DNA from: Bacillota bacterium
Lineage (GTDB): Bacteria; Bacillota; Limnochordia; DTU080
Reading direction: 5' to 3'
Length of the DNA: 45,225 nucleotides
Assembly (NCBI GenBank): GCA_012840225.1
Contig: DULU01000066.1
Coordinates: forward strand, 1 to 45,225
The translations under genes and the position numbers were made by a program. Of the stretch, positions 977-24,706 are shown one piece after another. The notes under the pieces were generated by a model. That model did no database searches, was not told the DNA's origin, and saw only the letters and a program-made list of their open reading frames with translations. Positions within the stretch are counted from its first letter, which is position 1, and each line of letters starts with the position of its first letter.

Positions 977-2206
977 ATGAAGATGAAAAGGAGCATCCAT
1001 CTCACGGCATTTTTGCTTATGACTCTGGTTATAAGCCTGGTAATGGGCAGCGCGGCAGCAGTTGCCGGTCAGGCTGTGGTCGAAGTCAGCGTGGTCTCAT
1101 GGTTTCCCACCAATCCCGGTTCTTATCTCGACAATCTGAAGAAGGCTTTTGAAGAGGCGAACCCCGGCTACAAAATCGTCTACCAGACTTTTGATTCCAA
1201 TACATATTACGACCGCCTGCAGGTGATGCTGGTCGGGGAGGTCATTCCTGATGTGGCGATGCTCGGCTTCGACTGGATCGCCACCATGGCTGAAAACGGC
1301 ATGGCCATGAACATCGATCAGCTGGTCAGAGAGGAGTTCCCCTATCAGGAGATGTTCCCTTCCATCCAGCGCTCGCTGCAATGGAAGGGGCAGTTTTATG
1401 CGCTCTGCCGCGACATCACCGCCAAAACCTTCTTCTATAACAAAGCGCATTTCGCCGAAGCCGGTCTGGCCGATCCGGCGGAAACCTGGACCTGGAACGA
1501 TTTTGTGAATATCGGTAAGAAGCTCCAGAAGGGCACAGGCGACAACACCGAGCGCTGGGCTTTTTATACCACCTTTGTCAGGGACGGGTATTATCACTGG
1601 TTCCCCACCAATGGAGCGGACTGGTTCAACTATGACCGCACGGAGGTGACCATGACCGACAGTCGCACCGTTGAGACATTCCAGTTCCTGCATGATCTGA
1701 TTTATCGCGATGGTTTGGCGCCCACTCCGGCGCAAGCCGGTAAGTTGAGATCGCCATTCGAAAACGGGATAGCCAGCATGCAGGTGGGCGGCTCGGTGCC
1801 TCCCAGCGCTACCACCTATCCCAACCTGGAATGGGAAGCCACTTTGCTTCCGAGAAAGCTGCAGGCCGGAAGCCGGGTATGGTCCAATCTGTGGTTTATC
1901 CCGGCCAAGACGGCCAACAAGGAGGCAGCTTGGAAGGTATTGTCCTTTTTTGCCGGACCGGAAGGCCAGCGGATTGCCGCCATGGATAATCGGGTACCCG
2001 CCATATACAGTGTCGTGAGGGAGTTGAACCTGCATCCGTATATCGTTAAGGCTTTTGAGGTCGGCATACCGTTCCCCGTGATCGCCAACCGCGATGTCTG
2101 GAATGTCTTTGATTCTCTCCTGCCGAAACTGTGGGCGAACGAGCAGCCGGTTTCCAATATACTGGCTGAAATCCAGCGCCAGACGGCACCCATGATGCGG
2201 AACTAG
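977..2206 (+). CDS. ABC transporter sugar-binding protein, family 1
   Basis: Extracellular or periplasmic solute-binding protein of the family-1 (CUT1, oligosaccharide) type, 409 residues. A basic N-terminus and a hydrophobic stretch end in AAAVAGQA, a signal-peptidase-I type site; there is no lipobox cysteine. The mature part shows family features: VVSWFPTNPGS at the start, the mid-protein AETWTWNDF segment and the late KEAAWKVLSFFAGPEGQ segment. The ATG is preceded by AGAAGGAGG at good distance, a very strong ribosome site. It follows the RpiR regulator and is followed by a hairpin at 2348-2380, so it appears to be transcribed alone or with the regulator. No permease gene adjoins it, which is unusual for this class. 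The substrate is unknown. Confidence 0.92.
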   Translation: MKMKRSIHLTAFLLMTLVISLVMGSAAAVAGQAVVEVSVVSWFPTNPGSYLDNLKKAFEEANPGYKIVYQTFDSNTYYDRLQVMLVGEVIPDVAMLGFDWIATMAENGMAMNIDQLVREEFPYQEMFPSIQRSLQWKGQFYALCRDITAKTFFYNKAHFAEAGLADPAETWTWNDFVNIGKKLQKGTGDNTERWAFYTTFVRDGYYHWFPTNGADWFNYDRTEVTMTDSRTVETFQFLHDLIYRDGLAPTPAQAGKLRSPFENGIASMQVGGSVPPSATTYPNLEWEATLLPRKLQAGSRVWSNLWFIPAKTANKEAAWKVLSFFAGPEGQRIAAMDNRVPAIYSVVRELNLHPYIVKAFEVGIPFPVIANRDVWNVFDSLLPKLWANEQPVSNILAEIQRQTAPMMRN

Positions 2207-2257
2207 GGCGGAACCAGGGCCGACGGGACCGACAGGGCCGACAGGGCCAAACCAGGG
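2198..2257 (+). repeat. Short degenerate tandem repeats overlapping the stop codon
   Basis: An 11-bp unit CGGAACTAGGG, containing the TAG stop of the binding-protein gene, is followed at once by CGGAACCAGGG, then by 9-bp units CCGACGGGA, CCGACAGGG, CCGACAGGG and by CCAAACCAGGG. The array starts over the stop codon and runs into the spacer. It is one of several stop-anchored arrays in the window. Confidence 0.8.
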
Positions 2258-2347
2258 CAAAGCTTGAGGAAGTAGAGCAAAGTAAGGGATCCACCACTAA
2301 GATAGGTAACCAGCACAAAGCTGGAGGAGCAGCGCGAAGCTGTTGAA

Positions 2348-2380
2348 GAAAGCCCAGCCGGAGCAAGCGGCTGGGCTTTC
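2348..2380 (+). terminator. Hairpin terminator after the first binding-protein gene
   Basis: A perfect 13-bp stem, GAAAGCCCAGCCG pairing with CGGCTGGGCTTTC, encloses a 7-base loop. The T-run after it is weak (CTTTCGTATCG). It is the first strong hairpin after the gene ending at 2206 and it precedes the 590-bp repeat block. Confidence 0.65.
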
Positions 2381-2409
2381 GTATCGTACGCCCGACATGG
2401 TGTATATAC

Positions 2410-3029
2410 CACCGCCCGCCACCACACGTCGCCACATGCCGCCGGCCACGGCGAGGGAGTGTCCAAATAATTCCGCTAGGTGTCCAAAAAAATCCGCTAT
2501 CTGACCGGGTGGGGTGGGGAGGTGTCCAAATCATGCCACAACGGGACGGCGCCGGGCTGGTGGAGTATGAGAATTACCAGTATATGGTAATTTTCAGCGG
2601 TATTTCCTTCCATTTCTTTCCTGAAACCGCTCACCATGACCCCAACCGAGACCTTGAGGGCATAATTTGGACACTCCTGGCGAGTTTGCGTCACTATTTG
2701 GACACCCCCACAGCCCTCTTCCATGTTTGGAGCAAGAAATGGACACTCAAGCGGGCGGGAGGGAGTGCGTGAGATTCTCCACAGAGAGTCGCTGTGTCTC
2801 TTTCGAGAGTTAAGGGTTCTCAAAAATGGCTTGACCGATAGCATTTCCTCCGGAAGTTGGGTCAATGAGAACCATGCCCACTCAGGTGGGTTTTAAGCGA
2901 TGCATCGCCAGGCGCGGTGATTGAGAACTACCACCTTTACGCAGGGTGTTTGTAGTTGGATGGGGCATATCAGCAGCTCAAGGCTTGTTTATTTGCATTC
3001 TCTAATCGTACAATGCATCTCACAGCCTG
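2410..3029. repeat. 590-bp-class tandem repeat, copy 1
   Basis: First of three direct tandem copies; equivalent bases (the GGTGTCCAAATCATGCCAC box) recur at 2521, 3111 and 3702, a period of 590-591 bp. Copy 1 is longer because it carries an extra GTGTCCAAATAATTCCGCTA box directly before the next box (2459 and 2480). The unit has a 226-bp box-bounded core and then a roughly 320-bp tail that includes a palindrome GCGATGCATCGC at 2897-2908. Apparent reading frames inside are not conserved between copies, so it is non-coding. Confidence 0.9.
2480..2705. mobile_element. MITE-like core with doubled inverted GTGTCCAAA boxes, copy 1
   Basis: Bounded by GTGTCCAAA (2480) and TTTGGACAC (2697-2705). A second pair lies inside, at 2522 and 2666-2674; these inner boxes extend to a 16-bp inverted repeat with one mismatch (GTGTCCAAATCATGCC against GTGTCCAAATTATGCC on the other strand). 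The centre holds a hairpin ATTACCA-GTATA-TGGTAAT (2573-2591). Repeated boxes in the same order at both ends are typical of IS21-family ends, so a transposase-less derivative is proposed. No transposase is present, and assignment to a family is an inference. Confidence 0.45.
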
Positions 3030-3621
3030 CTGTCGCCTACCGCCACACGCCGCCGACCACGGTGAGGTGGTGTCCAAAAAACTCCGCTATTAGTCTGGGT
3101 GGGGTGGGGAGGTGTCCAAATCATGCCACAACGGGCCGGCGCCGGGCCGGTGGAGTAGGAGAATTACCAGTATATGGTAATTCTCAGCGGTATTTCCTTC
3201 CATTTCTTTCCTGAAACCGCTCAACATGACCCCAACCGAGACCTTGAGGGAATAATTTGGACACCCCCGGTTGGTTTATGTCCCTATTTGGACACCCCCA
3301 CAGCCCTCTTCCATGTTTGGAGCAAGAAATGGACACTCAAGCGGGCGGGAGGGAGTGCGTGAGATTCTCCACAGAAAGTCGCCGTGTCTCTTTCGAGAGT
3401 TAAGGGTTCCCAATCGATGACTTGACCGATAGCATTCCCACAGAAAGGTGGGTTAATAAGAAACATGCCCACACGGGTGAGGTTTAAGCGATGCATCGCC
3501 AGGTACGGTGATTGAGAACTACCACCTTTACGTAGGGTGTTTGTAGTTGTATGGGGCATATCAGCAGCTCAAGGCGTGTTTGTTTGCATTCTCTAATCGT
3601 ACAATGCATCTCACAGCCTGG
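3030..3621. repeat. 590-bp-class tandem repeat, copy 2
   Basis: Second direct copy, nearly identical to copy 1 over long stretches, for example the segments around 3180-3250 and 3300-3420. It has a single left outer box (3070-3078). Between copies, differences are scattered single-base changes and short indels, so the duplication is not brand new. Confidence 0.9.
3070..3295. mobile_element. MITE-like core, copy 2
   Basis: Same layout and same length (226 bp) as copy 1, with boxes at 3070, 3112, 3256 and 3287. The central ATTACCA/TGGTAAT hairpin is kept. Confidence 0.45.
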
Positions 3622-3999
3622 CACCGCCCGTCACCGCATGCCGCCGGCCACGGTGAGGGGATGTCCAAATAATTCCGCTATCTGACCGGGTGGGGTGAGG
3701 AGGTGTCCAAATCATGCCACAACAGGACGGCACCGGGCCGGTGGAGCAGGAGAATTACCAATATATGGCAATTTTTGGCGGCATCTTCTTCCATTTCTTT
3801 CCTGAAACCGCTCACCATGGCCCCAACTGAAACCTTAAGGGAATATTTTGGACACCCCCGGTTGGTTTATGTCCCTATTTGGACACCCCCACAGCCCTCT
3901 TCCATGTTTGGAGCAAGAAATGGACACTCAAGCGGGCGGGAGGGAGTGCGTGGGATTCTCCACAGAGAGCCGCTGTGTCTCTTTCGAAAGTTAAGGGTT
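3622..3999. repeat. 590-bp-class tandem repeat, copy 3, truncated at the right
   Basis: Third direct copy. It matches the others from the CACCGCCCG start through the conserved TTAAGGGTT near 3991-3999 and then diverges, so about 200 bp of the tail is missing or replaced. The remaining spacer to 4180 shows no recognised gene. Confidence 0.85.
3661..3886. mobile_element. MITE-like core, copy 3
   Basis: Same 226-bp layout with boxes at 3661 (ATGTCCAAA, one change), 3703, 3847 and 3878. The central hairpin is weakened to ATTACCA/TGGCAAT. Confidence 0.42.
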
Positions 4000-4179
4000 T
4001 CGGATCGATGTATAGATCGAGAGCATTTCATCTTAGTAGGTGGGCAAAATGGCTCGTTGCATCTCGGCAATGAAGTTTATTCCATTATTTGGGGAGCTTT
4101 ACGAAACCAAACAAGCTCAAAGCAAACATCATTATGTAGCCATTGGCGCAGTGGTTCGAACCCATCAGGCTCACCAAGC

Positions 4180-4218
4180 AAAAGCCCCCTTGTAGAGCGA
4201 ATCTAAGAGGGGGCTTTT
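4180..4218 (+). terminator. Strong hairpin terminator
   Basis: AAAAGCCCCCT pairs perfectly with AGGGGGCTTTT (11 bp), followed by CG. It is symmetrical in A/T tails and could work in both directions. The transcript it ends on the plus strand is unclear, because no gene is recognised between the repeats and here; a tRNA-like 3' end lies just upstream but cannot be folded. Confidence 0.7.
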
Positions 4219-4301
4219 CGTATTCTCAGGCTCAAGTGAGCCGAACTAAATGGCGCCGGTGCAGTAGCCGGGGTGGAAACAGGCATAGCAGGGAGAGTTG
4301 A

Positions 4302-4386
4302 GGCCTTCGCTTCTCTTAGGCCTTCGCTTCTCTCAGGCCTTCGCTTCCTCGAGGCCGTCACTTCCCCGAGGCCATCACTTCTCCCC
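4302..4386. repeat. Five tandem 17-bp repeats overlapping the flotillin stop codon
   Basis: Five consecutive 17-bp units begin GGCC: GGCCTTCGCTTCTCTTA, GGCCTTCGCTTCTCTCA, GGCCTTCGCTTCCTCGA, GGCCGTCACTTCCCCGA and GGCCATCACTTCTCCCC. The last unit holds the flotillin stop codon (4375-4377 on the minus strand). The units get less alike with distance from one end, as expected for an array grown by slippage. Confidence 0.88.
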
Positions 4387-5823
4387 TTCCGGAGCGGCAG
4401 TCATGGTGATTTCCTTCCGCGTTTCCCCGGCTTCACCCGGATTATCCTGGGCTTTGGCCCGGCCTAGATATTCCGGCAGTTCGATGCCGGCCATGGCGGC
4501 AATATCCTGCAGGGGAGGCAGGCTCTTGATCAGGCTGGAAAGGAAGCCGGCCGTGGAGGAGCCTTTCTCGCCGCCCGCGGCGTCCCAAACGGTGATCTTG
4601 TCGATCTTCAGGCCCTTGATGGCATCGACCTGTTTGGACACCAGCTCTTCCATCTTCTCCACCAAAAGCAGCATGGCCGCGGCTTTGGCATCGCCGTTGC
4701 AGCTCTCCACCAGGGCGTTGTAGCCTTCCGCCTTAGCCTGCAGCACTTGCCGCACGCCTTTGGCTTCGGCTTCATAACGCAGGAGGATGGCGTCGGCCTC
4801 GCCTTTAGCCAGCCGGCGCAGGCGCTCGGCTTCGGCTTCGGCGGCGATTTCCACCTTCTGCTTCTCGATCTCTTCCTTGACCACTTCCTCGGCTTTCAGG
4901 CGTTCTTGCTCGGCCAGGTAATGCGCTTTTTGGATCTCCACCTGCGCCTGGCGTTTGGCCACTTCCGATTTCTGCTGCGCCGCTGCCTGTTTCACAGCGA
5001 GCTCGGCATTGGATTCGGCGATGTGAGCCGCTGCCTCGTTTTCGCCTTTAACCGCTTCAGCTTCTTTGGACTGCACATAGATACGCCGGTCGGCTTCCGC
5101 CTGCTTTTTACCTTTTTCAGCTTCCGCCAGGTTCTCGGCCACCCGGATGTTTTGCTCACGCTGAGCCATAGATTCGCCGATGGCACCGAACTTGTTCTGC
5201 TCGGCCACATCGACCCTGGCTTTGTTGATGGCTTCGGCGGCCGCTTTCTTACCGATGCTCTCTATGTAATCAGATTCATCGGTGATGTCGGTGACGTTGA
5301 CGTTGATCAGATAGAGGCCGATCTTGTTCAATTCCGGTTCGACATTATGGCGGATGGCGTCGAGGAAGCTCTCCCGATCCTGGTTGATCTGCTCAATGGT
5401 GAGTGAGGCCACCGTCAGGCGCAGCTGGCCAAAGATGATCTCTTTGGCCATGTCTTCGATGGCCGGCGGCTCGAGGCCCAAGAGCCTTTCTGCGGCGTTT
5501 TTCATGATGATCGGGTCCGTGCTGATGCCCACTGTGAAGGTGCTGGGGACATTGATGCGGATATTCTGCAGGGAAAGGGCATTCTGCAGCGGGATATTGA
5601 TCGTCATCGGGGTCAGACTGAGATAGGTGTAGTCCTGAATGAGCGGCCAGACAAAAGCACCTCCGCCGTGCAGGCAGCGGCTGGACTGACCAGGCGTCAC
5701 TTTTCCGTAGATCACCAGGATTTTGTCCGAGGGGCAGCGGCGATACCTGGCAGCCACAAAGATAAAAGCGGTAAAGATTAAGACCACAAAGGCGCTCACC
5801 GCAATGAGCCAAAAGTTGATCAA
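4375..5823 (-). CDS. floT: Flotillin-like SPFH/band 7 membrane protein
   Basis: Membrane scaffold of the flotillin (YuaG/FloT) type, 482 residues. One N-terminal membrane segment (about 4-26) anchors it. An SPFH/band 7 domain follows (about 27-200), then a long Ala/Glu/Lys-rich coiled coil (about 205-375) with many EAEA-type heptads, then a flotillin C-terminal region. The start is a TTG with AAAGGGAG about 10 bases upstream. It lies 71 bp downstream of an nfeD-like gene, the usual YuaF-YuaG pairing. Flotillins are known to organise membrane domains and to influence fluidity and the assembly of membrane complexes. The acidic tail (PEGEK) runs into the tandem-repeat array. The symbol follows the Bacillus name. 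Confidence 0.9.
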   Translation of the reverse strand: MINFWLIAVSAFVVLIFTAFIFVAARYRRCPSDKILVIYGKVTPGQSSRCLHGGGAFVWPLIQDYTYLSLTPMTINIPLQNALSLQNIRINVPSTFTVGISTDPIIMKNAAERLLGLEPPAIEDMAKEIIFGQLRLTVASLTIEQINQDRESFLDAIRHNVEPELNKIGLYLINVNVTDITDESDYIESIGKKAAAEAINKARVDVAEQNKFGAIGESMAQREQNIRVAENLAEAEKGKKQAEADRRIYVQSKEAEAVKGENEAAAHIAESNAELAVKQAAAQQKSEVAKRQAQVEIQKAHYLAEQERLKAEEVVKEEIEKQKVEIAAEAEAERLRRLAKGEADAILLRYEAEAKGVRQVLQAKAEGYNALVESCNGDAKAAAMLLLVEKMEELVSKQVDAIKGLKIDKITVWDAAGGEKGSSTAGFLSSLIKSLPPLQDIAAMAGIELPEYLGRAKAQDNPGEAGETRKEITMTAAPEGEK

Positions 5824-5894
5824 GGCGCTACACTCCCTTTCTTAATAGTTTTCTTCTACATCATCCGGTTGCGCGAGGTGCTGCGCTGCTCAGC

Positions 5895-7783: not shown

Positions 7784-8560
7784 ATGTTGGGTAAAGAGCT
7801 GCGGGCGGCTTTGCTGAGCGGCCGGCGGGTTTACGGAACACTGATCGTGTCTCCTTCCCCCAAGTGGCCTGAGGCGGTGGGGAGATGCGGTTTGGATTTT
7901 GTCTTTATTGATACGGAACATGTGGCCCTGGACCGGGAAAAATTGTCCTGGATGTGCCATACATACCGCGCGATGGGTATTGCCCCCATTGTACGCATTT
8001 TGGCGCCTGATCCTTTTCAGGCCACAATGATGCTCGATGCCGGAGCCTCGGGCATTATTGCTCCGTATATTGAAACCGCCGCCCAGGTGCGGGCGCTGGC
8101 CGGGGCGGTGAAGCTGCGGCCGGTGAAGGGGAGCTATTTACAGAACAAGCTGCATGGGACGGCAGAATTCCCCGGCACCCTGCAGGAATACCTCGATCAG
8201 GTAAATGGGGGAAACGTGCTGGTCGTCAATATCGAAAGTGTGCCGGCCATGGAGGCTCTCGACGAGATTTTGGCCGTCCCGGGGCTCGATGCCGTCTTGA
8301 TCGGTCCCCACGACTTGACCTGCAGTTTGGGTATCCCCGAACAATATGATCATCCCAGATTTAAAGAGGCCGTTTCGCAAATCATAAAGAAAGCCAGAGA
8401 GGCGGGGAAGGGAGCCGGCATTCACTATTCCTTCGGCTTGGCCGAGCAGATGGCCTGGATCAAAGAAGGAGCCAACCTGGTAGTGCACAGCAGCGATATC
8501 ACGCTCTTTTCCGAGGCTTTGCGGCGGGATTTGCAGGCGCTCAGGCAGATGGCGGAGTGA
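7784..8560 (+). CDS. HpcH/HpaI-family aldolase
   Basis: Class II, metal-dependent pyruvate aldolase family, 258 residues, close to 2,4-dihydroxyhept-2-ene-1,7-dioate aldolase and 2-keto-3-deoxy-L-rhamnonate aldolase. Seen: FVFIDTEHVALDRE (metal/acid region), APIVRIL, DAGASGIIAPYIETA, NIESVPAMEALDEI (metal Glu) and the signature VLIGPHDLTCSLGIP. It would split a 2-keto-3-deoxy sugar acid to pyruvate and an aldehyde, which fits breakdown of deoxy-sugar or uronic acids. It probably shares a transcript with the URO-D-like gene before it. Ribosome site CTGGAGG lies 13 bases from the ATG. The physiological substrate cannot be told. Confidence 0.9.
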   Translation: MLGKELRAALLSGRRVYGTLIVSPSPKWPEAVGRCGLDFVFIDTEHVALDREKLSWMCHTYRAMGIAPIVRILAPDPFQATMMLDAGASGIIAPYIETAAQVRALAGAVKLRPVKGSYLQNKLHGTAEFPGTLQEYLDQVNGGNVLVVNIESVPAMEALDEILAVPGLDAVLIGPHDLTCSLGIPEQYDHPRFKEAVSQIIKKAREAGKGAGIHYSFGLAEQMAWIKEGANLVVHSSDITLFSEALRRDLQALRQMAE

Positions 8561-8654
8561 GGAGTGAGAAGCGAGGCGCAAGAAGCGAGGCGCAAGAAGC
8601 GAAGCGCGAGAAGTGAGGAGCGAGAAGCGAGGAGCCTGGAGCAGGGCGTGAGGT
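8557..8654 (+). repeat. Seven tandem 14-bp repeats starting on the aldolase stop codon
   Basis: Seven consecutive 14-bp units: GTGAGGAGTGAGAA (holding the TGA stop), GCGAGGCGCAAGAA twice, GCGAAGCGCGAGAA, GTGAGGAGCGAGAA, GCGAGGAGCCTGGA and GCAGGGCGTGAGGT. Units 2 and 3 are identical. Because 14 is not a multiple of 3, repeated stops fall in different frames. Confidence 0.88.
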
Positions 8655-13943: not shown

Positions 13944-15248
13944 GTGAAAATCTCGGCAATTGCCAAACATTCCCGGCGTTCCTTGCTATTTTTATTGCTT
14001 TTGGTACTCGGCACGGCGGTCCTTGCTGCCCCGGCACTAGCGAAGACCAAGATCACGTTCCTGGACGATCTATCCGACTCCGAGGCTGTGGAATGGCTCC
14101 AGCTGGCCAAAAGCCGGTTTGAGGCCCTTCACCCCGATGTGGAAATTGAGATTTTGGCCATGAAAAGGGATCAGCTGCTGGAGAAAATCGTGATCATGCA
14201 GGCCACCGACATGTTGCCCGACGTGGTGGAAACGTCGCCCGAAGTCGGTTATGAATTCATGCAGAAGGGTTTCTTCCAGGATCTGAACCCCTACATGATG
14301 AAAGAGGCGAACCTCTCGTGGGATGAGTATTTCACCCCTGCTCTGACCGCCATCACTGTGGAAAGCGGCGAGCACAAGGGGAAGCGCTGGCTGTTGCCCG
14401 GTACCATCTGGCTGACGGGGGCGGCGTTCAATCTCAGCCTGTTCGCCGAGGCGGGTCTCAACGCCCCGGTGAGCCATACCAGCCAGTGGGCGAATCAGTG
14501 GACCTGGGATGATTTTGTGGAAATGGGCAAGAAGCTGGTAAGGGTGGACGCCACAGGCAAAGTGACCCGCTGGGCGGCCTTTGTGCCGAGAACCTGGATG
14601 CGCTGGCCGACATGGGTGCATAATGCCGGCGGCTTCATGTTCGACAGCTACTTTGAGCCTAAACAAAGCCTGCTGAATTCCGAACCGGTGCGGGTGGCCA
14701 TCAATTATCTGTATGAGATATACCAGGTATATCGCTTCGCCTACTGGTCCGGCAACTTTGTGCAGGGCAAGCTCCCCATCTCGTTCAATCAGGGGCCCAA
14801 CTGCACCCAACTGTTGGCCAATGCCGGCGCTACCTTTGATTTCGCCTACGGCCCCAATCCCAAACTGGTCCGCGGCGGCAGCGAAGTGCAGGTAGTGGGC
14901 TGGGTGATGAGCGCCACCTCCCGGCATCCTGATATTGCCTGGGAATGGATGAAGTTTCTCAGCACCACCATGGCTACCGAGTATGTGATACAGACTGGTC
15001 GGCCGCCGGCGTGGCAGACCGTGGCCCGGCGCTATAGTGAACTGGTGAAAACCAAGTCTCCCTGGGAGCATGTGTGGATCGATCTCATCAGCCATCCCGA
15101 TTCCTACCAGCGGGCTATATACAATCAGGATATACGCAACACCATGCAGCAGGCTGTGGAAGCCATCTTCGACGGCAATCAGCCTGTTGGCCCGACGCTT
15201 GAGCAGCTCCATGAAGTGATCTCCAATTACCTGAAGGAGAATCGCTGA
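13944..15248 (+). CDS. ABC transporter sugar-binding protein, family 1
   Basis: Solute-binding protein of 434 residues with a GTG start; AAAAGGAG stands 9-10 bases upstream. The signal peptide ends in APALAKTK, signal-peptidase-I type, with no lipobox. Family marks are FLDDLSDSEAVEWLQLAKSRFE at the mature start, WANQWTWDDFVEMGKKL in the middle and RHPDIAWEWMKFLS late. It is followed at once by a very large GHL10-type hydrolase, so binding protein and hydrolase form a pair. A short purine-rich 7-bp repeat (15252-15272) starts four bases after the stop codon. Substrate unknown. Confidence 0.92.
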   Translation: MKISAIAKHSRRSLLFLLLLVLGTAVLAAPALAKTKITFLDDLSDSEAVEWLQLAKSRFEALHPDVEIEILAMKRDQLLEKIVIMQATDMLPDVVETSPEVGYEFMQKGFFQDLNPYMMKEANLSWDEYFTPALTAITVESGEHKGKRWLLPGTIWLTGAAFNLSLFAEAGLNAPVSHTSQWANQWTWDDFVEMGKKLVRVDATGKVTRWAAFVPRTWMRWPTWVHNAGGFMFDSYFEPKQSLLNSEPVRVAINYLYEIYQVYRFAYWSGNFVQGKLPISFNQGPNCTQLLANAGATFDFAYGPNPKLVRGGSEVQVVGWVMSATSRHPDIAWEWMKFLSTTMATEYVIQTGRPPAWQTVARRYSELVKTKSPWEHVWIDLISHPDSYQRAIYNQDIRNTMQQAVEAIFDGNQPVGPTLEQLHEVISNYLKENR

Positions 15249-15318
15249 ATTGAGCGGAGAGCAGAGAGCGGGAGCGGCGGGTGGCGACAAAAGGCCGGTG
15301 GCAAGGAGAGTGATCGAA

Positions 15319-18222
15319 ATGTTACCAGCAAAACGCCTATTTGGTTTGCTCTGCCTCATCTTTATAGGCACTGCCGGTCTTTTCGGCGGGGTAGTGGCAG
15401 GAGCGGCGCCAGGGACAACGGCAGAGGCAGCGGCTGCGGCAGAGAGTACGATAAAGAGTACGGCAGAGGCGGTAGTAGAGGGCGAAATCTACTCCCTCAC
15501 CACGCTGGTCGGTATCGACGATCTCACGGCGCTGACCCGGGCAGGGGGAGTTACTTTGGCGGGATTCCAGGATGAGGCCGGTGTGCCGGTGCTCTCCGTG
15601 CGCTGGGTGATGCGGGGAGGCATGATGCCGACCTGGACCCTTATATTGCAGGATCACCAGGGCTCGTTTTTGAAAGGCGGCCCAAATGCCGAGATGTCGC
15701 TCGCCTATACCTTCGGCTATCCGGTAGCCGGGCATGTATACCAGACGGTGATTAATTACCAGCCGGAAAATGGCGCTCTCTGGATCTCCGTGATCGATAC
15801 GACCGAGGGGCATGAACTATGCCGACAGCAGTTAGTGGCCGGCACCGGGGTCATGCCCCTTCGCCCTTTTGCGGAAGTAGGTCAGGGGATTGGGGCGGTT
15901 TTGTCGCAGGTGGCGTCCGGGGAGTGGATCCCGGCCGGAATGGCCTGGGAGCTTGTCTCCACCGCTCTTGGCTGGAAAAGAAGTACGGTCGGCTCCCAGG
16001 TGATTAATCAACACCAGTTTGTGGTGGCTGCCGATGCCGGTGATCATCCATATCGGGGCCGGTTCCAGCTGCGCTTCCTTTCCGAAACAACTTCGGGAGG
16101 TGAGGCGTTCGTGCCCCTGCGGAGCACGGCCGGGCAACTCGTGCCGGAAAACCCTGCTGAGCTGCCGCTTGGTGAGAACATAGTGATCCTGGAATATGTG
16201 CAGGACGGCCGGACATGGGTGCTGGGAAGGAGCAATGTGAAATTGGTGCAGGCTCAGGTGACTGCAGCCGTGGAAGTGCGGGAGAGGGCGGATAGTTATA
16301 TTCAAGGCGAAGCCGTTTTGACCAGCGCTGCTCCGGCGGCTGGTGTGGCCTTCGAGATGCTCGCCGACATCGATGTCTGGCGTTATACCGGCAAATGGGA
16401 GCCGGTGGCCAAAAATGTAAAGGTGATGACCGGAGAGGTCACATTTGCCAGGGATGAGCCGGTGATCCTGCCGTTCCGCATGGGCAACCCGGCAGCCGGA
16501 GCCGGGGAGCCGGGCGTCTATCGCATTAACTTCCGCTTTGCGGGTATTCCGGAAAACCACTACCAGTGGGTGTTGGCTGAAGGCGATGCCCGTTGGGATG
16601 ACGGTAAAGGAAATCGCTATACCGGGCGGGAGGTCTTCGTGCGCTCCCGCAACTATGGATCGGCAGTGCCCGAGCTCTTTACGGATCAGGCAGCGGATCT
16701 GCAGGCCCAACTGGAGAAACTGCGAGAGGCAAGAGCCGAGGCAGCTCGGCGGCCCCGCCGGATCATCTTCAACAATGATGGTCATGATGCCGTGAGCCAT
16801 GCCATTAGTCCCACGCCTCAGGGGATGTTGTCCGCCCGTTCTTATCCGCTGATCGTGTCGCAGGTGGACGCCATTTTCTATTCCACCTGGGACGTGGGAC
16901 TGGTGAACACCATCCGCCGCACTGAGATCGGCCGCACCATGACCCTCAAGGGCGATTATTTCCCGAACAATATCACCGCAGATTTGCTGGCCCAGGGCAC
17001 CGATCCCCTGCAGGTGATAGTCGATTTCGGCAAAAAGCACGACATCGAAATCTTCTGGTCTTTGCGTATGAACGACACCCATGATGCCAGCGAGGAGCAT
17101 CAAAGGCAGCCTACCTTCGCCTTCAAAAGCGAGCATCCTCACTATCTGCTGGGTTCGGCCGAACAGCCCACCCTCAGAGGGCGGTGGACCGGATTCAATT
17201 ACGGTCTGCCCGAAGTCAGGGAGATCGCTTTCCGGCTGGTGGAGGAAGTATGTCAAAACTACGACATTGACGGCATTGAACTCGATTTCTTCCGCCACCT
17301 GCAATATTTCAAGAGTGTGGCCTATGATATGCCCGTGACCGAAGCCGAACTGGAGATGATGACGGAACTCGTGCGCCGGATCAGGCATATGACCGAAATG
17401 GAAGGCCTAAAGCGCGGCCGGCCTATCCTCGTGGCCGTGCGGGTGCCGGATTCGGTGGAGTATGCCAGGGACATTGGGTTGGATATCCGCACCTGGCTCG
17501 CCGAAGGGCTGGTCGATCTTCTGATCACTGGCGGTTATTTCAACCTCAATCCGTGGGAATACAGCGTCTCGCTGGCGAAGGAATATGGAGTGCAAGTATA
17601 TGCCAGCCTTGATGAATCCCGCCTGCCCGACACCGACAGGCGCAACTCCATCGAATCATACCGGGCGCAGGCCATGAATGCCTGGCTGGCCGGCGTGGAC
17701 GGGATATATATGTTCAACATCTTCAATCCCCGCCTGCCGCATTTCCAGGAAATCGGCGATCCAAAGCTTATCGCCTTCCGGGACAAGCTCTACTTTGCCA
17801 ACGTGCGCAACCGGGGCGGGAGCGGGAAGACGGTGGAAAAACCCATCACCTGGCTGAAAGACGGGTATGCATATCAGCATATGTCCCGGCTGAGCACATA
17901 TGAACCCATGACCGTCACCAAGAGCCGTGAAGGGGCGGTGGAAATTTGGATCGGCGATGATTTTGCTGCCGCCCGTGCCGCAGGCTACCGGCCGCAAGCC
18001 GTGCTCGAAATCCAGTATAAAGGGCGCATCGAGGATGCGGTGATAAAAGTGAACGGAGATAGGGCGGCGCTGAAAAGCGTCTCAGGCGACAGGGCCTGGT
18101 TTACACTTGATCCCGATATGCTGCGGCAAGGAGCGAACCTGGTCACGGTGGCCATGGCGGAAGTGGCCTCCGCCGGATCCATAACCGTGCAGGATATGGT
18201 GGTGGCCATCAGTTACAGGTAG
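15319..18222 (+). CDS. Secreted GHL10-type (DUF187-like) glycoside hydrolase, large
   Basis: A 967-residue exported protein. ATG 15319 is preferred: AAGGAGAG lies 9 bases before it and it starts a clean signal peptide (KRLFGLLCLIFIGTAGLFGG); a TTG 69 bases upstream lacks both. After an Ala/Thr/Glu-rich low-complexity stretch come roughly 430 residues of beta-rich sequence, probably Ig-like or carbohydrate-binding domains, then a coiled-coil linker (LQAQLEKLREARAEAARR). A TIM barrel follows (about residues 490-860): RRIIFNNDGHDA, then YDIDGIELDFFRH, the likely catalytic strand, and GVDGIYMFN. A small beta domain ends the protein. It should cleave an extracellular glycan for the neighbouring binding protein. 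The linkage is unknown. Confidence 0.82.
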   Translation: MLPAKRLFGLLCLIFIGTAGLFGGVVAGAAPGTTAEAAAAAESTIKSTAEAVVEGEIYSLTTLVGIDDLTALTRAGGVTLAGFQDEAGVPVLSVRWVMRGGMMPTWTLILQDHQGSFLKGGPNAEMSLAYTFGYPVAGHVYQTVINYQPENGALWISVIDTTEGHELCRQQLVAGTGVMPLRPFAEVGQGIGAVLSQVASGEWIPAGMAWELVSTALGWKRSTVGSQVINQHQFVVAADAGDHPYRGRFQLRFLSETTSGGEAFVPLRSTAGQLVPENPAELPLGENIVILEYVQDGRTWVLGRSNVKLVQAQVTAAVEVRERADSYIQGEAVLTSAAPAAGVAFEMLADIDVWRYTGKWEPVAKNVKVMTGEVTFARDEPVILPFRMGNPAAGAGEPGVYRINFRFAGIPENHYQWVLAEGDARWDDGKGNRYTGREVFVRSRNYGSAVPELFTDQAADLQAQLEKLREARAEAARRPRRIIFNNDGHDAVSHAISPTPQGMLSARSYPLIVSQVDAIFYSTWDVGLVNTIRRTEIGRTMTLKGDYFPNNITADLLAQGTDPLQVIVDFGKKHDIEIFWSLRMNDTHDASEEHQRQPTFAFKSEHPHYLLGSAEQPTLRGRWTGFNYGLPEVREIAFRLVEEVCQNYDIDGIELDFFRHLQYFKSVAYDMPVTEAELEMMTELVRRIRHMTEMEGLKRGRPILVAVRVPDSVEYARDIGLDIRTWLAEGLVDLLITGGYFNLNPWEYSVSLAKEYGVQVYASLDESRLPDTDRRNSIESYRAQAMNAWLAGVDGIYMFNIFNPRLPHFQEIGDPKLIAFRDKLYFANVRNRGGSGKTVEKPITWLKDGYAYQHMSRLSTYEPMTVTKSREGAVEIWIGDDFAAARAAGYRPQAVLEIQYKGRIEDAVIKVNGDRAALKSVSGDRAWFTLDPDMLRQGANLVTVAMAEVASAGSITVQDMVVAISYR

Positions 18223-18270
18223 CGGCAGGTAGCGTTAGGTAGCGTCAGGTGACGGCAGGTGGCGGCAGCG
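18211..18270 (+). repeat. Six 10-bp repeats running across the stop codon
   Basis: Six 10-bp units in register: AGTTACAGGT, AGCGGCAGGT, AGCGTTAGGT, AGCGTCAGGT, GACGGCAGGT, GGCGGCAGCG. The TAG stop of the hydrolase gene spans units 1 and 2. TAG or TGA recurs at each of the next junctions, each time in a new frame. Confidence 0.88.
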
Positions 18271-18414: not shown

Positions 18415-20589
18415 ATGAACTATACCGATGAATATGTGGAGCGGGTATATGCCGGTGTGCTGGGGAAAATCATCGGTGTCTATTTAGGGCGGCCGGTGGA
18501 AGGGTGGTCATATGAGCGGATCACGGCGGAAATCGGCGAGGTCGATACCTTCCTCCAGCAGCGCCGGGGAGTGCCGCTGATCGCCGCCGACGACGACATT
18601 TCCGGGACCTTCACCTTTCTGCGAGCTTTACCCGATCACGGGAACAGCATTGAAATCACCCCACGGCAAATCGGCCATACCTGGTTGAATTACATAATCC
18701 CCAACCGGAGCATTCTCTGGTGGGGCGGCTTGGGTATATCCACGGAGCATACCGCCTTTCTGCGCCTCTGCTGCGGCATTCCGGCCCCGCAGAGCGGTTC
18801 CATGGCACTGAACGGTCCGGTGATGGCCGAGCAGATCGGGGCGCAGATATTTATCGACGGCTGGGCCATGGTGGCGCCGGGCGATCCGGAGCTGGCCGCG
18901 GAGTTGGCCCGGCGGGCGGCTTCCGTCAGCCATGACGGTGCTGCCGTGCATGCCGCTCAGGTGCTGGCGGCCATGGAAGCTTTGGCGTTTGTGGAAACCG
19001 ACCGGCTGAAGCTCGTCGCTGCCGGTCTGGCGGTGATTCCCAAGGATTCCATCATCCGCCGGCTTATTGAGGATATCAGGGAGTGGTGGGCCGCCGAGCC
19101 TGATTGGCGGCGGGCCCGGCAAAAACTGGACGATCAATATGGATACAGCAAATTTCCGGGCAATTGCCACGTGGTGCCCAACCATGGCTTGATCATCCTG
19201 GCCTTTATATATGGTGACGATGATTTTCGCCGCACCCTGACTATCGTAAACACCTGCGGCTGGGATACCGATTGCAATTCCGGGAATCTGGGTTGCCTGA
19301 TGGGCATTAAAAATGGTTTGGCGGGGATCGACGGCTCGGCTGCCGACTGGCGGATGGCCGTAGCCGACCGGCTATATTTGCCCACCGCCGACAGCGGCCG
19401 GGTGATCACCGATGCACTGCGGGAAACATATGAGATAGTAAATATCGGCCGGGCTCTGCGGCAATGGCCTCCACTCTTGCCCAAGGATGTGGCTCGCTTT
19501 CACTTTGAGGCGGAGGGCGCGGTGCAGGGGTTTCAGGTGGCCTCGGGGGTAGCGGGCGGGGAACGCCTGCAGCTGAAAAATGTGGCAGGTCACAGTCGCC
19601 TCGGGCGGCGGAGCCTCGCCATATGCTACAAAGGGGTAACTGCAGAAGAACCTGCTGCCATAGCCACGCCGGTTTTTCTGCCTCCGGAGACCTTGGCCTC
19701 CAAAGGCGGAGACACTTACACCCTGATGGCCTCGCCCACCCTCTATTCAGGTCAGCTGGTGAGCTGGGGCGCAGTCGCCGGGGAGGGGAACCGCCACCCT
19801 GTGGAGGGGCGCCTTTTCATCGACACCTTTGATGCCCAAGACCGGCCGACTCGGCTTTTTGCCCCGCCCGTGGTCTTCCTGCCCGGAGCATATCGCCAAG
19901 CTTCCTGGCAGGTACCGGATACGGCCGGACAGCCGATCACCGCCGTCGGCCTGACCATCACCCCGCCGAGTGGGGAAGCTCCGGGTGAAGCAGGCGAAAC
20001 AGGGGATATTTCCGGAGTAATATATCTCGATTATCTCACCTGGAGCGGCAGTCCCCGGATCTTTCTGGGGCCGCAACCCGGCGGCGGCCATATGTGGCGG
20101 CACATGTGGGTGAATGCTGTAGACCATTGGCGAGCGGCCGGAGCCTTCAATATGTGTCAAAATGAAGGGATCGGCCTCCTCATCTGTGGTTCCGGGGAAT
20201 GGGTCGATTACCGGGCCACTGCGACGCTCCGCTCAAATCTGGCCAAAGCTTTCGGCCTGGCAGTGCGGGTCGGCGGTCTGAGACATTACTATGCCCTGCT
20301 ATTGACCGATCAGGACAAAGTGCAGCTGGTGCGGCGCCGGAGCGACGCTGAGGAAGCTGAGGTGTTGGAGGAGAAGAGCTTTGTCTGGGAGAAGGGCGCG
20401 GCCTATCGGTTCGAGCTGGCGGTGAGCGGTTCAATCTTGACTGCTTTAGTGGACGGGCGGCCGGTCTTGTCCACCTTTACCACCTTAGCCATTCCTGATC
20501 CCGCTCCCTTGTCCCGGGGCGGCGGCGTGGCTTTCTATTGCGAGGAAGGACAACTGTCAAGCGCCGGCATTGCCGTATCACCCGTATAA
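18415..20589 (+). CDS. ADP-ribosylglycohydrolase-family protein fused to a C-terminal beta-sandwich region
   Basis: A 724-residue two-part protein. The N-terminal part (about 1-330) is an ADP-ribosylglycohydrolase/DraG-type helical domain: LGKIIGVYLGRPVEGW at the start, ADDDISGTFTFL and the di-magnesium signature GWDTDCNSGNLGCLMG. The C-terminal part (about 350-724) is beta-rich; the last 180 residues (GSGEWVDYRATATLR ... GRPVLSTF ... GGGVAFYCEEG) resemble a LamG/concanavalin-like sandwich as in 3-keto-disaccharide hydrolase domains. No signal peptide. Such fusions in sugar loci more likely act on a glycoside than on ADP-ribosylated protein. ATG 18415 is chosen by similarity of the MNYTDEY start; a GTG lies at 18406. 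It follows a terminator, so it needs its own promoter. Confidence 0.82.
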   Translation: MNYTDEYVERVYAGVLGKIIGVYLGRPVEGWSYERITAEIGEVDTFLQQRRGVPLIAADDDISGTFTFLRALPDHGNSIEITPRQIGHTWLNYIIPNRSILWWGGLGISTEHTAFLRLCCGIPAPQSGSMALNGPVMAEQIGAQIFIDGWAMVAPGDPELAAELARRAASVSHDGAAVHAAQVLAAMEALAFVETDRLKLVAAGLAVIPKDSIIRRLIEDIREWWAAEPDWRRARQKLDDQYGYSKFPGNCHVVPNHGLIILAFIYGDDDFRRTLTIVNTCGWDTDCNSGNLGCLMGIKNGLAGIDGSAADWRMAVADRLYLPTADSGRVITDALRETYEIVNIGRALRQWPPLLPKDVARFHFEAEGAVQGFQVASGVAGGERLQLKNVAGHSRLGRRSLAICYKGVTAEEPAAIATPVFLPPETLASKGGDTYTLMASPTLYSGQLVSWGAVAGEGNRHPVEGRLFIDTFDAQDRPTRLFAPPVVFLPGAYRQASWQVPDTAGQPITAVGLTITPPSGEAPGEAGETGDISGVIYLDYLTWSGSPRIFLGPQPGGGHMWRHMWVNAVDHWRAAGAFNMCQNEGIGLLICGSGEWVDYRATATLRSNLAKAFGLAVRVGGLRHYYALLLTDQDKVQLVRRRSDAEEAEVLEEKSFVWEKGAAYRFELAVSGSILTALVDGRPVLSTFTTLAIPDPAPLSRGGGVAFYCEEGQLSSAGIAVSPV

Positions 20590-20669
20590 ATAGCGGCCGG
20601 TAGCAGGAGATGGCACTTGATAATGGGAAACAATATCAACGGACTTATTATGGAACGGAGGATCAGTAA

Positions 20670-21560
20670 ATGGGAGATATTCGCATTGGTATGATCGGAT
20701 TGGATACCTCGCATGTGGTGGCCTTCACCAAGGTGCTCAATGTAGAAAACGATCCTGAGCATGTCCCCGGCGGTAAGGTGCTGGTGGCTTTTCCGGGCGG
20801 CAGCAAGGATTTAGCCGTCAGCTATACCCGGGTGGATGGCTACGTCGCCAAGTTGCGCGATGATTTTGGCGTGGAGATGGTCGATTCCCCGGCAGCGGTG
20901 GCCGAGCGGTCCGACGCCATCCTCCTGGAAAGCGTCGACGGTAGGCAGCATCTCAGCCAGTTTGAAGAGATTGCTCGCTTCGGCAAACCGGTCTTTATCG
21001 ACAAGCCTTTTACCACCTCTTCGGCGGAGGCCAAGCGCATTTTTGAAATAGCCGGGCAGTATGGCACGCCCGTATTTTCCTCTTCATCCCTGCGTTTTGC
21101 TGCCGGCATCTCCGATCTGGCCAAAGATGAGAAAGTGCTCGGCTGCGTAGCCCACGGGCCGAATGCTATATTGCCCGACTTTCCGGGCATGTTCTGGTAC
21201 GGAATTCACTCGGCCGAGATTCTTTTCTCCCTGATGGGCACAGGCTGCAAAGAGGTGCGGGTCAGCACCACCGAGGGAGCCGATGTGGTGACAGGCACCT
21301 GGCAGGACGACAGGATCGGCGTACTCTACGGCGGCCGCCTGGGCAAAATCACCTTCAGCGCCACCGTCTTTACAGATAAGGGAACCCGCTTTGCCGAAGC
21401 CGCCAAATCTCCATCGGGCTACTACCTGATGCTCAAGGCGATCATGGAATTCTTCAAGACCGGCCGCTCGCCCATACCGCAGGAAGAGACCCTGGAGATC
21501 ATCCGCTTCCTCGAGGCGGCCAACGAAGCCAAGGCCACCGGCAATCCGGTAGCACTCTAG
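20670..21560 (+). CDS. Gfo/Idh/MocA-family oxidoreductase
   Basis: NAD(P)-dependent sugar dehydrogenase-like protein, 296 residues. The N-terminal Rossmann part begins IRIGMIGLDTSHVVAFTK, where the usual second and third glycines of the nucleotide loop are replaced, a form seen in a short subfamily. The family EKPx motif appears as FIDKPFTTSSAEAKRI with Lys kept. The C-terminal half is the usual beta-sheet substrate domain, with HSAEILFSLMG supplying the His-helix. GGAGG lies 9 bases before the ATG. It is 80 bp after the ADP-ribosylglycohydrolase-like gene and probably co-transcribed. Oxidation of a sugar or inositol derivative is likely; the substrate is not known. Confidence 0.86.
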   Translation: MGDIRIGMIGLDTSHVVAFTKVLNVENDPEHVPGGKVLVAFPGGSKDLAVSYTRVDGYVAKLRDDFGVEMVDSPAAVAERSDAILLESVDGRQHLSQFEEIARFGKPVFIDKPFTTSSAEAKRIFEIAGQYGTPVFSSSSLRFAAGISDLAKDEKVLGCVAHGPNAILPDFPGMFWYGIHSAEILFSLMGTGCKEVRVSTTEGADVVTGTWQDDRIGVLYGGRLGKITFSATVFTDKGTRFAEAAKSPSGYYLMLKAIMEFFKTGRSPIPQEETLEIIRFLEAANEAKATGNPVAL

Positions 21561-21562
21561 TT

Positions 21563-21595
21563 AGCCGGCCAGCCGGGCCAGCCGGTCGGCCGGCT
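21563..21595 (+). repeat. GC-rich repeat and hairpin just after a stop codon
   Basis: AGCCGGCC, AGCCGGGCC and AGCCGGTC follow each other directly after the TAG at 21558-21560. The first unit pairs with GGCCGGCT (21588-21595), so the array can fold as an 8-bp hairpin. There is no T-run; terminator function is doubtful. The rest of the spacer to 21777 shows no other feature. Confidence 0.55.
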
Positions 21596-21777
21596 GAGGC
21601 CTGACTAGCTAGGGCCTGAAAGAGCGCAAGGGCAGGCACCTGGGCAGTCCGGATGTCGGATAGCAAATATTTATTATTCCGGTGAATTCTGCCGGCAGGG
21701 TGAATGCATCTTAACTAGAATAATGTCTTTCTCAATGTATAAAGATGTCATTAATCCGGATCCGGAGGGTTTGCTTG

Positions 21778-22383
21778 ATGCCTTTTCTGTTGCTGGTAGG
21801 AGCCTTCCTCATAGGAGCGGTACCTACAGGATACCTGGTCGTCTTGATCAGCAAGGGAGAGAATATCCAGAAAATAGGCAGTGGAAACATAGGCTCCACC
21901 AATGTGGGACGAGTGGCAGGTAAAAAAGCGGCTCTCCTCACCCAGGCCGTCGATGTTTCCAAGGGCGCATTGGTCATGCTTCTGACGCTGGCTTATGTAA
22001 ACTGGCGTCCCACCCCCTGGTTGGTGGAAGGGGTGGCGCTGGCGACCATGCTGGGTAATGCCTATACGCCCTTTCTGCGCTTTAGAGGCGGGAAAGGGGT
22101 AAACACCATGTTCGGCGTGTTTACCCCTCTTTTCCCTCTAGCAGCTGTTTTGTCCTTTTTCTGCCATCTGGTGATCAGGAAGATTACCGGTTTCGTTTCC
22201 CTGGCTTCGCTGGTGGCCGGTTTTGTGGCCATTCTGGCTGCCGGCTTCATCTATGGCTGGACCACCCGCACCGCCGTGCTGATCATCTCCTACCTGTTGG
22301 TGATATGGCTGCACCGGTCCAATATATATCGTTTATATAAGGGATCCGAGCACCGGGAGAGCAAAGCGACCAAGCAGCGCTAG
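21778..22383 (+). CDS. plsY: Glycerol-3-phosphate acyltransferase PlsY
   Basis: Integral membrane enzyme that moves an acyl group from acyl-phosphate to glycerol-3-phosphate, the first step of phospholipid synthesis; 201 residues. All three conserved loops are present: GSGNIGSTNVGR, FLRFRGGKGVNT and LHRSNIYRL. About five membrane segments are visible. ATG 21778 is preferred, with GGAGG nine bases upstream; an ATG 33 bases earlier has no site. The partner plsX is not in the window. It ends 68 bp from the convergent YhcN-like gene. Confidence 0.95.
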   Translation: MPFLLLVGAFLIGAVPTGYLVVLISKGENIQKIGSGNIGSTNVGRVAGKKAALLTQAVDVSKGALVMLLTLAYVNWRPTPWLVEGVALATMLGNAYTPFLRFRGGKGVNTMFGVFTPLFPLAAVLSFFCHLVIRKITGFVSLASLVAGFVAILAAGFIYGWTTRTAVLIISYLLVIWLHRSNIYRLYKGSEHRESKATKQR

Positions 22384-22422
22384 GTCCATGCGGGTGATGC
22401 GGATCAGCCGGCAGAGGAGCGA

Positions 22423-22473
22423 AAGCTTGGCCCCCGGCTTAGAGCTGCCGATCAGCCGGCAGGCGCCAAGCTT
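22423..22473. terminator. Possible shared terminator between convergent plsY and the YhcN-like gene
   Basis: AAGCTTGGC (22423-22431) pairs with GCCAAGCTT (22465-22473), and inner CCGGCT/AGCCGG segments can extend the stem. It overlaps the 3' end of the minus-strand gene. T-runs are short, so the call is weak. Confidence 0.35.
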
Positions 22474-23063
22474 CTCAGCAAAGCGTCGATTTCCGTCCTG
22501 AAGCTGGAGAGCGGTTGCCCGGCGGCAATGCCTTCGCTTATCTTGCGGATGCGCACCACCAGGTCCGGATCGGCCGTGACGATAGCCCTGTCGATGCCGG
22601 GCAGCTCTTCCACCTGATCGGACACCTCATCTTTAACCGCTTCCACCTGGCCACGCACCATATCGTTCAATTCCACAGCCACCAGGGCAATGGAGCCGCT
22701 GGTTATGCCCCAGGCATTTTGCACACCTTCCACACTCCGGGCCGCACTGGCGATGCGCCTGTTCAGCTGCTCGGGACTGTTATCCTCCATGCGATCCGTG
22801 CGGTCGGTTCTATCCGGCATAAAGCCTACATTCTCCCCTCCCGGAGTGCCGGGGAGCGGTGTCTGCTCCAACATATTTCTTCCCCCCGGCGGTATCTGCT
22901 GCCGGTTGTTCAGATTCATAGGCAGCAAAAGCAAAGCCAAAAGCAGAAGACTGCCCAAAGCCACGCCTGGCCATAGCCAACTCCTGCTTCCATCCCTGTC
23001 TCGCCGGCCGTCCCTGTTTTCTTCTCTTTTATCTCTATCCTGCCCCTGATTTTCCTGATCCAT
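22452..23063 (-). CDS. YhcN/YlaJ-family spore protein, membrane-anchored variant
   Basis: A 203-residue protein with a very polar Arg/Asp-rich N-terminus (about 1-28), one membrane segment (WPGVALGSLLLLALLLLP), a Pro/Gly-rich linker containing DRTDRTDR, and a C-terminal YhcN/YlaJ domain (about 105-200). The domain shows the typical run RIASAARSVEGVQNAW, AVELND and KISEGIAAGQPLSSF. Family members in Bacillus are spore-associated lipoproteins; this one lacks a lipobox and seems anchored by the membrane helix instead. The ATG at 23063 is preferred over a TTG one codon earlier. It points to a spore-forming host. Confidence 0.75.
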   Translation of the reverse strand: MDQENQGQDRDKREENRDGRRDRDGSRSWLWPGVALGSLLLLALLLLPMNLNNRQQIPPGGRNMLEQTPLPGTPGGENVGFMPDRTDRTDRMEDNSPEQLNRRIASAARSVEGVQNAWGITSGSIALVAVELNDMVRGQVEAVKDEVSDQVEELPGIDRAIVTADPDLVVRIRKISEGIAAGQPLSSFRTEIDALLRSLAPAG

Positions 23064-23322
23064 CAATCACTACCAACCTTTCTCTCTTTGTGCCTGATTT
23101 GTTGGCGGGGAGATGACGCCGCGACTATTCCCCTTCACATAGTCTAGCTATGTCGGGCAGGCTTTAGTCGCCACAGGCGGCAGGTTTGTATCAGGTTGCA
23201 GCACAAGTGGGAGAAGGAATTTGCTTTAATAAAGGAAATACATAGATGAGGTTTATTAGGCGGTTGTGCCGGGCCGCCGGGCCGGTAAATATAAGCAATG
23301 CAAGATGGAAAGGGTGTTTTTT

Positions 23323-24645
23323 TTGGCAAAAGTTGTCTTCATAGGGGCGGGTAGTTGGGGGTTCACCCGCAACCTGGTGCGCGATCTTTTGACGTTTCCC
23401 CTTCTGCAAGACGCCACCATATCCTTGGTGGATATAAATCCTGATCGTTTGGCCTTTGCCAAGCGGGCGGTGGAGCGCATTATCAAGGAAGGCAATTATG
23501 GGGCGAAAATAGAGACCACTTTAAACAGGCGCGAGGTTCTCGAGGGCGCAGATGCCGTCTTGTGCACTATTTTGGCCGGTGGTGTGCAGGTGTGGCGGCA
23601 TGATATTGAGATACCCAAAAAATACGGGGTCGATTTCAATGTGGGAGATACCCGCGGCACGGCGGGGATATTCAGGGCTCTACGCACCATACCGGAGATG
23701 GTCAACATTTGCCGCGATATGGAAGAGCTTTGTCCCAATGCCATTCTCCTTAATTACACCAACCCCATGGCTATGCTCTGCCGGGCCATGCAGCGGGAAT
23801 CCTCCATTCAGGTGACGGGCTTGTGCCATAGCGTGCAGGGCACTGCCGCCATGCTGGCCCGCTGGATCGGGGCACCGATGTCGGAAGTGGATTATGTCTG
23901 TGCCGGCATCAACCATCAGGCCTTTTACCTGAAGTACACCTGGAAGGGTGAGGATGCATATCCGCTGATCCGGGAAGCCGTCAAGAAGCCTGAGATTTAT
24001 AATCAGGAACTGGTGCGCAACGAGATGTTCCTCCACCTGGATTATTATGTCACCGAATCGAGCGGGCATAATTCCGAGTATAACTGGTGGTTCCGCAAGC
24101 GTCCCGATCTGATCGAGAAGTATTGCCTGCACGGGACGAACTGGAATCCGGGTAAACATGCGTATATCCTGGAGACCTACCTGTCCCGGGAAGACACCTG
24201 GCGGGCCGACGCGGAAAAATGGTTTGAGCGGCCGATCGATCTGCGGCGCGGCAATGAGTATGCGGCTTCCATCATCAACGCTTATCTGGGCGGCGAGCCG
24301 TTTGAATTCAACGGCAATGTGCCCAACAAGGGCTTGATCCCCAATCTGCCGTATGATGCCTGCGTGGAGGTGCCCGTCGTTGCCAACCGGCGCGGCTTCA
24401 ACTCCATCTTTGTCGGGCCGTTGCCGCCACAGCTCGCGGCATTGAACAATCTCAACATCGCCATTGAGGAGATGGCGGTGGAAGCCGCTCTGACCGGCAA
24501 TCCGCGCTTGGTCTTCCAGGCCTGCGCTTATGATCCGGTGGCGGCCTCGGTATTGTCGCTTGCCGAGATCAAAGATATGGTGCAGACGATGCTGAAGCAG
24601 AACGAACCGTATCTGCCTCAGTTTAAGCACATTAATATCGATTAG
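23323..24645 (+). CDS. melA: Alpha-galactosidase, GH4 family (MelA type)
   Basis: NAD- and Mn-dependent alpha-galactosidase of family GH4, 440 residues, cytoplasmic. It opens with the Rossmann loop [17 protein letters not shown]. Key motifs are [10 protein letters not shown], the metal-binding [14 protein letters not shown] and [11 protein letters not shown], then [16 protein letters not shown]. All match MelA rather than the 6-phospho-glycosidase branch. GH4 enzymes use an oxidation-elimination route through a 3-keto sugar. A TTG start at 23323 fits the family N-terminus and has AAAGGGTG upstream; an in-frame ATG (23305) would add six residues. It stands alone, closed by the hairpin at 24666. 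Alpha-galacturonidase is an alternative, but the motifs favour MelA. Confidence 0.88.
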
Positions 24646-24665
24646 GTAGTCACAAGGTAGTCATG

Positions 24666-24706
24666 AAAATTCCCTCCTCCCTATATGCTGCGGAGGAGGG
24701 AATTTT
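24666..24706 (+). terminator. Terminator hairpin that also contains the spoVB ribosome-binding site
   Basis: A perfect 15-bp stem, AAAATTCCCTCCTCC pairing with GGAGGAGGGAATTTT, has an 11-base loop. It looks like the terminator of the GH4 gene ending at 24645. Its 3' arm is also the only Shine-Dalgarno (GGAGGAGGG) for the GTG at 24707, which directly abuts the hairpin. In the folded RNA the ribosome site would be paired. Confidence 0.85.

Follow-up and report, generated by a model that had tools for sequence, protein, structure and literature searches.

Tandem repeats at the ends of genes were analyzed in a 45,225-nt stretch of DNA from a Bacillota bacterium (GenBank assembly GCA_012840225.1, contig DULU01000066.1), referred to below as the window. 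The window corresponds to contig C67 of a bacterial draft genome (G000) that comprises 3.55 Mb in 154 contigs and is 96.6% complete; as is common for metagenome bins, this draft yielded no 16S rRNA gene. According to the original prediction, gene after gene in the first part of the window ends in degenerate tandem copies of the sequence around its stop codon, with a different unit at each site but the same anchor point. Of the seven cases cited, five were backed by arrays detected with Tandem Repeats Finder (TRF), while two were weak and fell under the TRF threshold. The arrays and the genes they accompany, identified in part by Pfam, were as follows.

2197-2248, + strand: 11-bp unit in 2.2 copies, then 9-bp unit in 3.8 copies (TRF scores 41 and 54), spanning and trailing the stop (2204-2206) of a solute-binding-protein gene (977-2206; Pfam)
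4301-4383, - strand: 17-bp unit in 4.9 copies (TRF score 94), including the stop (4375-4377) of a flotillin-like gene (4375-5823; Pfam)
8559-8635, + strand: 14-bp unit in 5.5 copies (TRF score 98), beginning within the stop (8558-8560) of an HpcH/HpaI aldolase gene (7784-8560; Pfam)
15252-15272, + strand: weak 7-bp unit in 3 copies (11/14 matches, under the TRF threshold), following the stop of a solute-binding-protein gene (13944-15248)
18216-18268, + strand: 10-bp unit in 5.3 copies (TRF score 64), including the stop (18220-18222) of a GHL10-domain gene
21563-21594, + strand: 8/9-bp unit in approximately 4 copies (TRF score 41), just past the stop (21558-21560) of a Gfo/Idh/MocA gene
24644-24665, + strand: weak 11-bp unit in 2 copies (9/11 matches, under the TRF threshold), at the stop of a GH4 gene (23266-24645)
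Approximately 24670-24703, + strand: terminator-like stem after the preceding duplication

Copies within the TRF arrays of the window matched one another at 63-100% of positions. The two sub-threshold cases were nevertheless rare in shuffled sequence: of 1056 shuffled stop regions, just 1 had a match as good as that at 15252-15272 and 5 had one as good as that at 24644-24665. The array said to begin at 8557 was present, but its proposed extent of seven copies to 8654 was generous compared with the 5.5 copies to 8635 given by TRF. Similarly, the pattern was genuine but the phrase "gene after gene" overstated it, since arrays with scores of at least 36 occurred at 6 of the 31 stops called in the window.

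Position and period of arrays across the genome

The pattern was followed in a sample of 1.41 Mb of the source genome (92 pieces), to which the genome-wide counts below refer. Genes were called with our own caller, based on a fifth-order Markov model, which performed well for stops and less well for starts and missed some genes (e.g., 24707-26140). Array periods were mostly 8-21 bp. The score threshold of at least 36 applies to stop counts in the window and a TRF score of at least 50 to densities compared between genomes.

Enrichment of arrays near stops, relative to starts and other spacer, was evident in this sample, so the result that would have refuted the original prediction, namely a lack of enrichment near stops or of the pattern in the rest of the genome, did not arise. 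Thus, arrays covered approximately 8.5% of positions 0-60 nt after stops as opposed to 2.7% of those 0-60 nt before starts, 3.1% of the remaining spacer and 1.1% of coding DNA. Arrays were borne by 101 of 657 stops followed by at least 40 nt of spacer and by 37 of 766 starts (odds ratio 3.6, p = 2e-11), and 121 of 1112 genes had an array on the stop side. Spacers contained 142 arrays, compared with 1-11 (approximately 5) in each of ten dinucleotide shuffles.

The contention that the anchor point is the same each time held for the stop side of genes but not for the stop codon. Relative to the stop, arrays began at a level rate of approximately 2.6 per 1000 positions between -20 and +40 and at a third of this rate (approximately 1 per 1000) past +60. 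The rate fell steeply upstream of -20, where a limit would be predicted if the stop has to lie within the first copy. The anchor is therefore not the stop codon itself but a zone that takes in the final 20 nt of the gene and continues to approximately 40-60 nt past the stop. Arrays were rarest near starts, with coverage of only 0.5% at 0-20 nt in divergent spacers, for example, and in convergent spacers coverage was approximately 12% within 60 nt of a stop as opposed to 3.8% beyond 80 nt.

Array periods differed between coding DNA and gene ends. Multiples of three accounted for 202 of 218 periods (93%) in coding DNA, whereas periods of stop-containing arrays were evenly spread (15, 13 and 11 for remainders of 1, 2 and 0 modulo 3), in agreement with the suggestion that periods at stops do not follow codon length. 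The stop lay in the first copy in 31 of 39 stop-containing arrays, which therefore leave the protein untouched. Units also differed from locus to locus across the genome, each copying the local gene end. Among all spacer arrays, 84 of 185 periods (45%) were divisible by three, which is above one third; perhaps some spacers include uncalled small genes or gene remnants.

Tests of function

Two explanations accompanied the original prediction, one being slippage tolerated solely outside coding DNA and the other a selected arrangement that reinforces stops or limits decay. Selected stop reinforcement, in which stops in other frames would catch readthrough or frameshifted ribosomes, appeared compatible with the finding that, at the stop position, 71% of the additional copies still have a stop triplet. 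Likewise, stops in all three frames within 60 nt were found for 25% of genes with arrays compared with 15%, a difference that arises partly because the stop itself is copied. Stop triplets agreed between neighboring copies at a frequency of 0.701 compared with 0.640 +/- 0.064 at matched offsets, a value reached in 83 of 500 replicates; preferential conservation of stop triplets, indicated by comparison with all other triplets (p = 0.02), was thus lost against matched offsets. The next in-frame stop was no nearer in genes with arrays (median 16 codons with and without), and arrays that start after the stop contained no excess of stop triplets (41 compared with 42.3 expected). In addition, just 121 of the 1112 genes have an array, coding DNA shows the same excess and the arrangement is absent in same-family relatives. 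Taken together, these results make selected stop reinforcement very improbable.

A role of array RNA in 3' structures that protect mRNA or tune termination was assigned a similarly slight probability. One of the seven cited arrays (21563-21594) is GC-rich and palindromic, with AGCCGGCC units, and the region 21555-21600 is predicted to form a strong hairpin (z -3.4), so that an array generated by slippage may in this case act as a terminator-like structure. In contrast, the other six folded no better than their own shuffles (z -1.2 to +0.5), a search of the window against Rfam gave zero matches, and terminators were equally frequent with and without arrays (9/92 compared with 46/474). Displacement of terminators downstream by arrays was also considered, but the difference in median distance (87 compared with 65 nt) was not significant with 9 array cases. 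A dedicated stop-reinforcing or decay-limiting role is not supported, the tests of matched conservation, in-frame stops, stop counts and folding all having failed.

Comparison with relatives and origin of the arrays

The importance of lineage was evident from array densities in different genomes. Thus, the density in the source genome was 1.77 arrays per 10 kb, whereas the same-family relatives, although sampled more thinly, contained one array in 267 kb (G002) and none in 80 kb (G001), with P = 2e-19 for this comparison. The source genome lies approximately 45-fold above a same-family relative. Corresponding values were one array in 200 kb for E. coli K-12 and 0.42 per 10 kb for 70 mixed bacterial loci. 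Coding arrays were also in excess, occupying 0.56% of coding bases (score of at least 50) compared with 0 in G002. Tandem repeats are usually scarce in bacterial chromosomes, a rule to which the same-family relatives conform and from which the source genome departs. Some of these mixed loci, with Planctomycetes or Anaerolinea labels (L052, L057 and L069), resembled the source genome in density (2-2.4 arrays per 10 kb, on small counts), and a similar excess may therefore recur in other lineages.

An artefact of assembly or binning, in the form of misassembly or of contigs contaminating the draft from another organism, is suggested by its division into 154 contigs and its estimated contamination of 4.3%. 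The arrays, however, are diverged and mostly shorter than 100 bp, which is below read length. They were found in 63 of the 73 pieces of at least 8 kb, so they do not mark a contaminating subset of contigs, and misassembly would not obey codon periods in genes. The chance that the arrays are artefactual therefore appears minimal.

No member of the genus of the source was among the 40 relatives searched. Orthologs in the source genome and the two same-family relatives were 50-76% identical, and gene ends mostly aligned at the same place in G001 and G002, where repeats were lacking; for example, the same-family ortholog of the flotillin-like gene has no repeat in place of the array at 4301-4383. 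Between shared gene pairs, the median difference in length of source spacers from those of the relative was +47 nt for spacers that carry arrays (n = 5) and -6 nt for those without (n = 21; p = 0.003). In one instance, a spacer of 7 nt in G002 corresponds to 68 nt in the source genome, most of which consists of 3.5 copies of a 16-bp unit. Judged from these comparisons, the arrays are lineage-specific insertions relative to orthologous spacers. No similar DNA was found in plasmids.

We consider it probable (approximately 0.7) that short tandem duplications arise in excess throughout the genome in this one lineage and that the arrays are their by-products, filtered by purifying selection. Short units, mostly of 8-21 bp, would be copied from local DNA, expanded and later diverged through point mutation. 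If a duplication starts within the final 20 nt or so of a gene and continues beyond the stop, the first copy of the gene end, with its stop, would stay intact; the protein would then be unchanged and any period would be allowed. Surviving duplications within genes would be limited to multiples of three, and those just before starts would be purged because they disturb ribosome-binding and promoter DNA. We infer that the duplications arose by replication slippage or microhomology-mediated duplication and that arrays after stops are nearly neutral. The former is partly supported by exact two-copy duplications, which had a mean of 3.9 extra border bases (a figure inflated by partial third copies) compared with 0.76 under blunt duplication. 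This border homology fits slippage or annealing of short homologies for part of the duplications. The explanation by slippage in the original prediction was therefore near the best reading, with two corrections: arrays also occur inside genes, at periods that are mostly multiples of three, and the excess is a trait of the whole lineage.

Three observations weigh against an origin in excess duplication filtered by selection. First, no mutator lesion was found; MutS, MutL, RecJ, Ku and PolA, when checked in the source genome and 12 relatives, showed no loss and were full length in the source genome as in the relatives. Second, three of the six coding arrays that have an ortholog showed no insertion. 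Third, arrays were 2-3-fold more frequent on the stop side than in mid-spacer, convergent spacers included, whereas simple neutrality predicts a flat profile away from promoters. This excess is not explained by simple tolerance. The leading alternative for it, although unlikely overall, is a mutational process that itself aims at gene 3' ends and adds to relaxed selection; DNA past the stop is transcribed but free of ribosomes, and R-loops, polymerase pausing or transcription-replication conflict might raise slippage there. In favor of such targeting, the excess persists both in convergent spacers and where spacers reach 160 nt or more, cases in which promoters cannot explain the gradient. On the other hand, the sense-strand bias of arrays was mild (G 0.31 compared with 0.29, T 0.18 compared with 0.22), and unannotated elements in long spacers could equally depress the mid-spacer rate. 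It is doubtful, too, that a distinct process in this lineage, such as a change in repair or replication acting mainly past stops, makes the 8-21-bp arrays at gene 3' ends; were this the case, new spacer DNA would be built from copies of gene ends.

If selective filtering of excess duplications is correct, the genome would provide a natural record of tolerance to short duplications, which is highest in stop-side spacer, followed by mid-spacer, genes (in multiples of three) and starts. The findings also make a case for asking what alters the duplication rate of a lineage and whether the copying of gene ends enlarges spacers.

Further repeats in the window and comparison with known systems

Other arrays in the window, including the sixth array-bearing stop, which lies beyond the range of the original prediction, were as follows.

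25416-25456, + strand: 21-bp unit in 2 copies within coding sequence 24707-26140 (TRF; period a multiple of three)
37659-37771, no strand assigned: 7-bp and 5-bp arrays (TTAGC in 8 copies and TTAGCTA-type units) in a divergent spacer (TRF)
42082-42111, - strand: 12-bp unit in 2.5 copies near the stop of gene 42148-42954

The array at 25416-25456 is the coding counterpart of the same duplication process, and those in the divergent spacer at 37659-37771, which lies upstream of the gene at 37947-40028 that encodes a GIY-YIG/UvrC-like protein, indicate that arrays are not confined to stops.

A larger repeat was noted at 2410-4230, where a segment of approximately 591 bp occurs three times head to tail, the copies being 90-94% identical over the first 300 nt. 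The segments hold repeated TGTCCAAA...TTTGGACA motifs, and none of four open reading frames (ORFs) tested within them had a Pfam match. Related copies, in tandem at several places, were present in pieces L149, L151, L164, L169, L210 and L211 of the source genome. The first 387 nt of the region folded better than shuffles (z -2.5), and the segment might represent a mobile element, either decayed or non-autonomous, or else a structured RNA family.

In the literature on stop-anchored bacterial tandem repeats, nothing closer was found than reports on TAACTGA repeats and on the repeats of Borg elements. More generally, the part of a survey of bacterial short tandem repeats and variable-number tandem repeat loci that is drawn on here (PMC12699852) concerns units of up to approximately 9 bp and describes most bacteria as depleted in them. 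The present arrays resemble such slippage loci, as represented in that part, in being slippage-prone, head to tail beyond chance and inserted relative to homologous loci, but differ in that their units are mostly longer, their number is approximately 30 times that in shuffles and their stop-side profile is sharp.

The TAACTGA heptamer repeats of Beggiatoaceae and some other bacteria (PMC4679880) are intergenic, consist of one fixed unit and lie mainly just upstream of starts. Like the arrays described here, they occupy many intergenic loci in one lineage, in some cases over the stop of the upstream gene, and include stop triplets. In contrast with these heptamers, the present arrays avoid starts and have a unit of their own at each locus.

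The nearest described case is that of the tandem repeats of Borgs, which are archaeal extrachromosomal elements (Schoelmerich et al. 2023, PMC9879509). Borg repeats have locus-unique units apparently derived from local DNA and occur in spacers as well as genes, with periods divisible by three in ORFs and mostly not so in spacers. They are flanked by partial repeats, may start within the last part of an ORF and are nearly absent from the host genome. The present arrays share the locus-specific local units, the scatter over spacers and genes and the divisibility of ORF periods by three (202/218). Borgs, however, are linear elements of Methanoperedens, whereas the source here is a 3.55-Mb bacterial bin with mutS, mutL, recJ and polA; copies are degenerate and arrays GC-rich here, as opposed to perfect and A-rich in Borgs, and in the present case the excess on the stop side of genes and its profile have been quantified.

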